A DNA stretch of 64,000 nucleotides, from the NCBI RefSeq assembly GCF_007556595.1, contig NZ_VJNB01000009.1, positions 48,787 to 112,786 of the forward strand, read 5' to 3'. Position numbers and translations under genes: made by a program. Every line of letters starts with the position of its first letter. Within the stretch, counting starts at the first letter, position 1. The stretch comes from Tepidimonas alkaliphilus (GTDB lineage Bacteria; Pseudomonadota; Gammaproteobacteria; Burkholderiales; Burkholderiaceae_C). Of this stretch, positions 15,732 through 61,457 are shown piece by piece. A model generated the notes under the pieces. The model did not search any database and was not told where the DNA came from. It saw nothing but the letters and a program-made list of their open reading frames with translations.

Positions 15732-18409
<2,678 letters not shown>

Positions 18410-18614
18410 ACGACGGACATTGTAGTGCCGGCGTGGGGATGCGACGAGCTTGGGACGAGCTTGGGGTCTCGTCATGATTTCAAGATTTGAAAATAACGTC
18501 GCTGATATGAAAAGAGCGGGTGGCGTCTGGAATGGCTTGCGCGCATGGTGCGAACAGGGTTCTCACGATAAGAAATAGGATATCTAAAAGATTAATTTTT
18601 ATAGCGTTTTTTGA

Positions 18615-59558: not shown

Positions 59559-61457
59559 ATGGACGGGACGGTGGTCAAGGCTGCCCTTTCGGGGCGGGAG
59601 CTGGCACGGCAACGACGCCAGGCGCTGGCGCAGCAGGGACGCGCGGCGTTGGCGACCTTGCGCAGTGCGATGGCGCGCGCCGCCACCTCGCCGCAGTCGC
59701 AAGGCTCGGGCGGCTGCGGCTGTGGCTGCGGCGGGCAAAATGGTTGCACGCGCGCCTCGGCTGACAGCGCGGACGGCGTGGCGCGAATGCTGGCGGCTGC
59801 CCAGGGCGAATCCTCGCTGCAAGCGCGTCCCGCTCAGCATGGGGACGACATGCCGCGCGTGGCAGTGCCGACGGGTCGGGCGCTGGCGCAAGCGCGCCGC
59901 GCGGCGCTGGCGCGCGAAGGCAAAGCGGGCCTGACCCGCGTGGCGCAGGCCACCCGTCTGGCCACCACGATGCCCGACCGGAATTGGCGCGAAGCGCTGC
60001 AAAAAGGCGCCACGGGGCGCCAGTTGGCGATGCAGCGGCGCACCCTGCTGGCTCTGACGGGGCGGGCTGGCCTGGCCGCCTCGACGCAGCCCGCCAGCAG
60101 CACCCGCCCGACCGGGCGCGTGCGCCCCCACGCGGCTGCGCTGCGCGAAGCCGCCCACACCGAAGAGGGGCACACCTTGTCTGGGCAAAAAGTCACCGGC
60201 ACGCAGGTCGAGCGCAGCCAAAAGGTCACCGGCATGGAGGCAGGTACCTGCCGCCACGTGACCGGCACCGAATACATCGGCCAAGAGCAGTTTGAAGCGT
60301 GGTGCGCCAGCAAGCCGCAGCCGGCTCCGGCGAAGGTCAACATCACGCACACCGAGCGCGGGCGCACGGTGACCGGCGCCCACCCTGGGCTCAACCCCAA
60401 GGTGACCGGCAACGAAACCGGCGCTTGCCGCGGCATCACCGGCACGCGCTACCTGGCGGCGGAAGACGTGTCGCTGTGCGAACAGATCGCGCCGCGCGCG
60501 CCGCACAAAGTCAGCGTGATGTCGTCGCGTGGCGACAACGAGATCACCGGCACTCCAGTGGGGCGCAGCCCCAAAGTGACCGGCAACGAAGCCGGCGCGC
60601 AGCGACTCATCTCGGGCACCCAGTATGCGCTGTCGGCGGGCGGCGCGGCGGGCGTGCGGGCCGGCACCGCCACCCGGCGTGCCGACCCGCCGGTGCGTCC
60701 TGCGGTAACCGATGGCGCGGCTGAACCCGTGGCGCAAACGCACGCGGAGGAAGCGCAACGCATGCCAGCGGGTTTTGCCTTGGCCACCGTCAGCGGTGAC
60801 AGCCCGGGGGCGGGCGGTGGCCGCATCACCGGTGACGAGCGCGGCGCCTGCGAGCCGGTCACCGGCACGCCTTACCTCGGGCCGGACAATCTAAGCGGCG
60901 GCTGCACCCTGAGCGGGCGGTGGCTGACCCGCTACCCCGAGTTGGCCGCCATCGACGCGCCGCCGCCGCCGCGCGACTTCAGCGTGCAACCGCCAGCGCG
61001 GCAGGCATGGGAGCGGCGCCAGCGCATCACGGGCAGCGGCGGCAGCGATGAAAGCGCGCTGCGCGTGACCGGGCCGGGTATGAAAGCCCAAGGTCTCATC
61101 ACCGGCACGCCGGAGTTTCGCCACGGCTCGACCTCGTCTGCGCCTTGGCTCGGGGCCATGGCCGGCGCAAGCGCCAGCGCGGCGGCGCAGCGCGTGACGG
61201 GCGAAGGCTCGGCCCCGCGTTCGGTGCGCATCACCGGCGATGCGTGGGGAAGCGAGCGGCGGGTCACGGGCACCGAAGGCGCTTCGGCCACGGTGCGCAA
61301 CCCCACGCAGCGCGGGCTGCCGCGGCCCATGGGGGCGCAAGCACGCCACCTGCGCGCGATCGAGCGCGAGGAGGTGCCGCTGAGCCCGATCACCGGCAGC
61401 AGCGGCAACACCCCGCGCGGCGCGGTGGTGACCGTTTCCGGCGGCGCCCGAGGTTGA
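59559..61457 (+). CDS. csoS2: Carboxysome assembly scaffold protein CsoS2
   Basis: An intrinsically disordered scaffold that links RubisCO to the shell. The 632-residue full-length product has three RubisCO-binding N-repeats: SGRELARQRRQAL (11-23), TGRALAQARRAAL and TGRQLAMQRRTLL. A middle region has three M-repeats with paired VTG/ITG blocks (KVTGTQVERSQKVTGMEAG, TVTGAHPGLNPKVTGNETG, EITGTPVGRSPKVTGNEAG). The C-terminal region has PGMKAQGLITGTPEFRH and ends ITGSSGNTPRGA...SGGARG. It is shorter than Halothiobacillus CsoS2 (about 869 residues, more M-repeats). A Cys cluster (C53, C55, C57, C63) lies after the first N-repeat. The ATG at 59559 has AAGAGGAG upstream. Confidence 0.96.
   Translation: MDGTVVKAALSGRELARQRRQALAQQGRAALATLRSAMARAATSPQSQGSGGCGCGCGGQNGCTRASADSADGVARMLAAAQGESSLQARPAQHGDDMPRVAVPTGRALAQARRAALAREGKAGLTRVAQATRLATTMPDRNWREALQKGATGRQLAMQRRTLLALTGRAGLAASTQPASSTRPTGRVRPHAAALREAAHTEEGHTLSGQKVTGTQVERSQKVTGMEAGTCRHVTGTEYIGQEQFEAWCASKPQPAPAKVNITHTERGRTVTGAHPGLNPKVTGNETGACRGITGTRYLAAEDVSLCEQIAPRAPHKVSVMSSRGDNEITGTPVGRSPKVTGNEAGAQRLISGTQYALSAGGAAGVRAGTATRRADPPVRPAVTDGAAEPVAQTHAEEAQRMPAGFALATVSGDSPGAGGGRITGDERGACEPVTGTPYLGPDNLSGGCTLSGRWLTRYPELAAIDAPPPPRDFSVQPPARQAWERRQRITGSGGSDESALRVTGPGMKAQGLITGTPEFRHGSTSSAPWLGAMAGASASAAAQRVTGEGSAPRSVRITGDAWGSERRVTGTEGASATVRNPTQRGLPRPMGAQARHLRAIEREEVPLSPITGSSGNTPRGAVVTVSGGARG
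60770..60822 (+). promoter_or_regulatory. Candidate programmed -1 ribosomal frameshift element in csoS2
   Basis: The heptamer G-GGT-TTT (60770-60776) is in the X-XXY-YYZ phase relative to the csoS2 frame (codons 404-406). After a 5-nt spacer (60777-60781), GGCCACCG (60782-60789) pairs perfectly with CGGTGGCC (60815-60822). After a -1 slip the ribosome reads TGC CTT GGC CAC CGT CAG CGG and stops at TGA (60797-60799), giving a product of about 413 residues that lacks the C-terminal domain. csoS2 of Halothiobacillus is known to use -1 frameshifting for its short isoform. Confidence 0.7.

Follow-up and report, generated by a model that had tools for sequence, protein, structure and literature searches.

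Does the csoS2 gene of Tepidimonas, a member of the Burkholderiales by NCBI taxonomy, encode a short scaffold protein through −1 ribosomal frameshifting, and if so, is its slip site the one known from Halothiobacillus? The gene lies in a 64,000-nucleotide stretch of DNA (the window), where Pfam identifies cbbL, cbbS, csoS2, and csoSCA as neighbours, the four genes of a cso operon. Its product aligns with the H. neapolitanus-type CsoS2B chains 8b12 and 9ly8. The element at 60770–60822 is real and under selection, and comparison of the gene with its relatives makes it very probable that it programs −1 frameshifting that gives a CsoS2A-like short form.

A candidate slip site in csoS2

The heptamer G GGT TTT is read within the codons GCG GGT TTT and has the form X XXY YYZ in the zero-frame phase. 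It is followed, after a 5-nt spacer, by the 8-bp stem GGCCACCG/CGGTGGCC at 60782–60789/60815–60822, and the phase, spacer, and stem agree letter for letter with those given in an earlier sequence-only reading of this DNA. That reading had also proposed a −1-frame TGA and a product of about 413 residues, and both were confirmed: 406 zero-frame residues followed by seven from the −1 frame (CLGHRQR) lead up to the TGA at 60797–60799 (Table 1). The predicted short product keeps the N-repeats and M1–M3 and, as had been claimed, lacks the C-terminal domain, such that the gene would specify two isoforms. Predicted marker peptides are MPAGFCLGHR and QDAGFCVGHR for the short form and the ...GFALATVSGDSPG... 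region for the long form.

Table 1. Features of Tepidimonas csoS2 and of the predicted frameshift element (positions in the window)
Feature	Coordinates	Strand	Remarks
csoS2	59559..61457	+	full-length 632 aa, CsoS2B-like; ORF, Pfam CsoS2_M 258 bits
N-type repeat 1 (GRELARQRRQALAQQGRAAL)	59592..59651	+	from translation
N-type repeat 2 (GRALAQARRAALAREGKAGL)	59874..59933	+	from translation
N-type repeat 3 (GRQLAMQRRTLLALTGRAGL)	60015..60074	+	from translation
M-repeat 1	60162..60293	+	best match MR1 of seven-repeat relatives (pairwise scores, L010 and L012)
M-repeat 2	60333..60467	+	best match MR4, close to MR2 in L012
M-repeat 3	60504..60632	+	best match MR5 (pairwise scores)
Last repeat (GDSPGAGGG...TGTPYLGPDN)	60768..60893	+	homologue of the repeat following MR7 in relatives
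Slippery heptamer G GGT TTT, zero-frame phase	60770..60776	+	kept in 5/7 Tepidimonas csoS2
5-nt spacer	60777..60781	+	two positions variable among five species
Helix H1, 5' arm (GGCCACC)	60782..60788	+	pairs with 60816-60822; 7/7 pairs in all five species
Helix H2, 5' arm (GTCA)	60789..60792	+	pairs with 60797-60800
−1-frame TGA	60797..60799	+	within the 3' arm of H2 (60797-60800); 5/5 species
Helix H3, 5' arm (GCCCG)	60802..60806	+	pairs with 60811-60815
Helix H1, 3' arm (GGTGGCC)	60816..60822	+	RNAalifold consensus
Predicted −1 frameshift product, 413 aa	59559..60799	+	ends ...RMPAGF-CLGHRQR; −1-frame translation
C-terminal domain	60894..61454	+	not part of the short form as predicted; aligned with CsoS2B chains 8b12 and 8yvc

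The repeats were assigned in two ways. N-type repeats 1–3 were identified with what we take to be the N-type repeat motif, and the others were scored pairwise against two relatives with seven M-repeats (L010 and L012). M-repeat 2 scored 131 with MR4 in L010, and 120 with MR4 versus 117 with MR2 in L012. The last repeat scored 164 with the repeat after MR7 in L010 versus 48–78 with the remaining L010 repeats, and no repeat scored best with MR6 or MR7 of either relative. Whether the short product keeps all M-repeats, as the sequence-only reading had it, hinges on naming: M1–M3 are retained, and the repeat removed by the truncation falls under the last part of the Pfam CsoS2_M model (371–425, matching 60738–60905), yet corresponds to the repeat that adjoins the C-terminal domain.

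What we infer is the slippage itself, how often it happens, and what the short form does. On GCG GGT TTT, ribosomes that meet the RNA structure predicted 5 nt downstream would shift back one base to GGG TTT, add the −1-frame tail, and stop at the TGA, giving a CsoS2A-like protein beside the full-length one. The heptamer G_GGU_UUU is among the most shifty on mammalian ribosomes, as described in the available text of PMC5009743. For E. coli, the consulted part of PMC4066793 lists R_RR.U_UU.Y as shifty exceptions and H_HH.U_UU.Y as the top class; G_GG.U_UU.U falls outside this top class, which counts against the frameshift reading. By analogy with H. neapolitanus, the short form would retain the Rubisco-binding N-region and three M-repeats without the shell-stitching C-terminal region, and may favour larger shells. 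The proportion of the two forms may influence how carboxysomes assemble, as the sequence-only reading suggested. Two M-repeats suffice for encapsulation in H. neapolitanus (PMC11481516, in the part consulted), and the three M-repeats of the predicted short form thus make its uptake likely.

Position relative to the Halothiobacillus-type site

We surveyed 130 csoS2 genes, of which 7 come from the genus, 10 from the family, 43 from the order, and 70 from the class. Left out were L024 (a repeat protein under the Pfam cut-off that is not CsoS2), G1018, and the duplicate loci L001, L009, L017–L020, and L025–L043; L114 and L129 are without their C-terminal end. A Halothiobacillus-type site, C CCA AAR at PK.[TS]GD in M-repeat 6, was found in 27 of the 130 genes. 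Its −1 tail is three codons long in 26 of these and four in L068, which was counted as canonical by its heptamer and is without a stem. Four further genes (L100, L114, L139, and L143) carry C CCA AAR with a 2–3-codon tail outside the M6 zone and were excluded from this count. The canonical site aligns to P566-K567 of the H. neapolitanus CsoS2B chain 9ly8. H. neapolitanus CsoS2A has 570 residues, three of them from the −1 frame (PMC5009743, available text), and we therefore equate the C CCA AAR site with the H. neapolitanus site, since the alignment fits these numbers.

Tepidimonas does not have C CCA AAR in M-repeat 6 with three −1 codons. Its heptamer is G GGT TTT versus C CCA AAR, it lies before the last repeat versus in M6, and seven −1 codons follow versus three. 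Because M6 and M7 have no counterpart in Tepidimonas CsoS2, the two sites are non-homologous; the Tepidimonas motif immediately precedes the next repeat, and its predicted product would thus be CsoS2A-like but made from a non-homologous site. The location of this predicted slip site is new in that it differs from the known M-repeat 6 site. The literature searched, seen in part and with the primary 2016 study outside its reach, makes no mention of a csoS2 slip site other than that in the sixth M-repeat. Frameshifting was predicted by that 2016 study in 79 of 162 csoS2-bearing species, as reported in the accessible portion of PMC5009743.

Outside the genus, an in-phase G GGT TTT occurs in 6 of 123 csoS2 genes (L057, L068, L091, L094, L121, and L127). 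None of the six has the AGFALATVSG context, and a −1 stop within 12 codons is present solely in L091 and L127. In L127, a single genome, A AAT TTT and G GGT TTT lie 11 codons apart within csoS2 codons 441–455, each with a one-codon −1 tail.

A tree was built from 29 of the 130 loci and has several long branches; of the other loci, 17 were outside the chosen set and 84 did not match the motif anchors by which the pieces were cut. In these 29 rows, a group of short CsoS2 proteins comprising Tepidimonas, genus g73, and L008 (SH-aLRT 93) is placed among the canonical-site genes, a position consistent with the old site having been lost and a new one gained. The M-repeat 6 slip site would have disappeared when M6 and M7 did, and the Tepidimonas lineage would have acquired a new one bordering the next repeat and built on another heptamer (G GGT TTT instead of C CCA AAR). 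It is unlikely, if not negligibly so, that the site is instead an inherited Halothiobacillus-type slip site whose sequence and position have drifted. Both sites have the −1 TGA in a [TS]GD motif (GGT GAC) inside the stem, and both remove the C-terminal region, as such an origin would have it; heptamer, repeat, and stop distance all differ, however, nothing in Tepidimonas CsoS2 corresponds to the carrier repeat MR6, and no slip site was found in the three genes of genus g73 or in L008, which have a similar short repeat layout. The element is likely a functional, independently evolved −1 frameshift site.

Conservation within Tepidimonas

csoS2 is present in 7 of 11 genomes of the genus. The heptamer, TGA, and stem are intact in the window and in L003, L004, L005, and L006. 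L007 (79% identity) has C GGA TTT, its stem is broken, and its −1 frame has no stop nearby; all three parts are missing in the distant L008. The earlier expectation of conservation among relatives above codon level thus holds for five of the seven Tepidimonas genes but not for L007 and L008. Synonymous breakage of the heptamer and stem, the outcome named beforehand as a refutation, does occur in L007, where the near stop is gone as well, and in L008. The divergence of L007 at the element is ordinary codon divergence, and both loss of the site and branching before its gain are compatible with the data.

Among the five motif-bearing genes, the heptamer and TGA are each kept in 5/5 and the pairing in 80/80 pair cells. 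We resampled codon columns by drawing each codon from columns elsewhere in the gene that have the same window codon; with five species and a TTT donor pool of two columns, the 5/5 heptamer, the 5/5 stop, and the 80/80 pair cells were each reached in 0 of 20,000 draws (mean 58–63 pair cells). All three GGT columns at the element are conserved versus none of seven elsewhere in the gene. In the preset region of codons 404–421, the 17 residue-invariant codons show 26 synonymous pairwise differences among the five species versus 66 expected (P 0.0005). The result is weaker when the region is taken as the minimum of a scan along the whole gene, which 60 of 500 shuffles reached with five species and 8 of 500 with four. 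With L007 included, the region has 13 variable codons versus 13.5 expected, and compared with L007 it is conserved like the gene (6–8 of 17–18 codons the same; gene 0.52–0.59). In the 67-nt alignment eight columns vary: two in the spacer, two in the H3 loop, two downstream, and two that produce pairs of the G-U type, and no pair is broken.

Another RNA-level role for the stretch, for example in pausing on or processing of the cso mRNA through its structure, or as an overlapping signal, would constrain it without any frameshift. Structure alone would account for much of the synonymous constraint, the five species share a consensus fold, and the frameshift product is a prediction; nonetheless we regard this explanation as quite unlikely, as it leaves unexplained both the conservation of the heptamer, with the two GGT codons from which the −1 TGA and the slip site arise, and the joint absence of the three parts in L007.

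Chance with local codon bias is a still less probable source of the pattern, as is a recent gene-conversion tract among the species; we consider either very improbable. The gene is GC-rich, and in synonymous shuffles of the window csoS2 an in-phase X XXY YYZ (Y = A/T) alone arose about one time in five (408 of 2000 with codons permuted and 358 of 2000 with the codon usage of five window genes), which together with the five-species gene-wide scan speaks for chance. Requiring a −1 stop within 10 codons lowered these counts to 119/2000 and 69/2000, and the further addition of a Watson-Crick stem of at least 8 bp left 0/2000 and 1/2000; the resampling with same-codon donors likewise argues against chance. 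A conversion tract would need to have its ends near the borders of the element, since the flanking codons on both sides diverge more. Frameshifting at a selected element accommodates these results best.

A second stretch of low synonymous divergence, 17 codons long, starts 95 alignment columns before codon 404 in the region of M-repeat 3 and stays low with L007 included.

Predicted RNA structure

The stem had been described as closing a 25-nt loop. There are indeed 25 nt between its arms, but they are not predicted to form an open loop: the RNAalifold consensus of the five species is a three-way junction with two further hairpins. The simple 8-bp hairpin with an open loop was rejected, as the junction is 10.6–13.0 kcal/mol more stable in the same 50 nt in all five species. 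Of the 16 junction pairs, none is broken in the five species and two vary to the G-U type, both by one-sided changes in H3 that preserve pairing; compensatory two-sided changes were not found among these five species. Five of the 21 RNAalifold pairs tie the heptamer or spacer to downstream bases.

The junction begins after a 5-nt spacer, within the 5–9 nt at which a stable structure is expected, but its folding energy is ordinary for the composition and longer sequences have a competing fold. For sequences of 60, 50, 84, and 131 nt, respectively, 28, 19, 85, and 81 of 200 shuffles of like composition fold as well. With 50 nt all five species have the junction as their minimum, and with 60 nt downstream a fold involving the next repeat is the minimum in four of five at 37 °C and in four of five at 55 °C. 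A covariance model, for which 150 candidates were scored per genome, gave 98–100 bits in the five motif genes, 53 in L007, and 24 for the next best match in the 11 genus genomes. No Rfam family matched the csoS2 element at the gathering threshold; the sole match in the window is a TPP riboswitch elsewhere (18300–18415, minus strand, 69 bits).

Two other arrangements were considered. An H-type pseudoknot (60794–60799/60826–60831), judged by eye on the alignment, is not supported, as one of its six pairs fails in three of the five species and it competes with H2. An internal Shine-Dalgarno stimulator or internal start was rejected for lack of conservation among the genus genes. Internal initiation that makes a C-terminal fragment, with the structure serving initiation, is accordingly scarcely credible: the window does contain a GGAGG (60746–60750) and an in-frame ATG (60762–60764), but the ATG is present in only three of seven genus genes (L002, L004, and L007) and the GGAGG is unconserved.

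Comparison with known frameshift systems

In dnaX of E. coli a −1 shift likewise yields a shorter protein beside the full one, with stimulation by an upstream Shine-Dalgarno sequence, whereas no Shine-Dalgarno sequence is conserved at the Tepidimonas site. The dnaX heptamer is A AAA AAG versus G GGT TTT in Tepidimonas (PMC5009743, available text). IS911 uses a three-way junction as stimulator, according to the same text, and a branched RNA is likewise predicted after the Tepidimonas heptamer; IS911 is a transposable element, however, and its gene is unrelated to csoS2.

The nearest parallel is csoS2 of H. neapolitanus, where a −1 shift in the same gene also depends on a heptamer, a downstream RNA structure, and an early TGA (PMC5009743, PMC11365436, PMC12918739, and PMC11481516, each in the part consulted). 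The short isoform without the C-terminal domain described there is a prediction for Tepidimonas. The folds differ, with a consensus three-way junction in Tepidimonas versus one stem in the consensus of canonical-site relatives. Cyanobium and Prochlorococcus csoS2 belong to the same scaffold family and are reported, in the consulted part of PMC12918739, to have a single form. The short scaffold of H. neapolitanus was described as inessential (PMC11365436, in the part seen). If the assignment is correct, a non-canonical slip site under strong selection that gives the same kind of truncation would be evidence from nature for the importance of the short form. Genes of similar short layout with the switch (five Tepidimonas) and without it (L007, L008, and genus g73) would then form a comparative system, useful for asking how shell size is governed by the ratio of the isoforms, and the elements could serve as compact natural frameshift parts for carboxysome engineering.

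Other candidate slip sites in csoS2

Four genes from four families in other orders of the class (L097, L099, L100, and L107) have A AAT TTT with a hairpin directly after the heptamer and, three codons further, a TGA, immediately ahead of the QPG.GG repeat. Codon agreement at this site is 7–8/8 or 10–11/11 versus 0.39–0.55 across the gene. As in Tepidimonas, the motif stands before the last repeat, and it is likely a third type of frameshift site. At codons ~525–560 these genes share A AAT TTT TGC CRG GCT GAA with nearly invariant codons.

A further heptamer, A AAA AAR, stands where M-repeat 4 starts in eight genes of the same order (L045, L046, L047, L048, L064, L069, L070, and L072) and is followed by a −1 tail of exactly 26 residues. 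The tail has the consensus S.ERW..GERHPTG......RR and then a stop. Comparison of the two subgroups of carriers shows stronger conservation in the −1 frame than in the zero frame (BLOSUM62 79.7 vs 32.5), and zero-frame third positions are the least variable in this region, which suggests that the tail may be dual coding. A search of one carrier family found csoS2 in 64 of 117 genomes. Among its best 30 loci 27 were new (L158–L184), and 25 of these have A AAA AAG with a similar 26-residue tail; this is not a family-wide rate, as the loci are the best-scoring ones and come mostly from one genus.

Considered jointly, the sites in M-repeat 6 (C CCA AAR), before the last repeat (G GGT TTT and A AAT TTT), and in M-repeat 4 (A AAA AAR) incline us to a wider reading, which we hold with modest confidence. 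Frameshift truncation of csoS2 would have been invented at least four times, with lineages that lose one switch re-evolving another, and the 26-residue tail would be under selection of its own. Such re-evolution after loss would imply that the ratio of short to long scaffold is an essential design parameter of alpha-carboxysomes.

In M-repeat 4 of L064, L069, and L070, the zero-frame VSG and GDE motifs are largely lost and the −1-frame peptide is kept. The csoS2 of L172 (G1231) contains one in-frame TAG; we retained this locus and took its reading from a single open piece.
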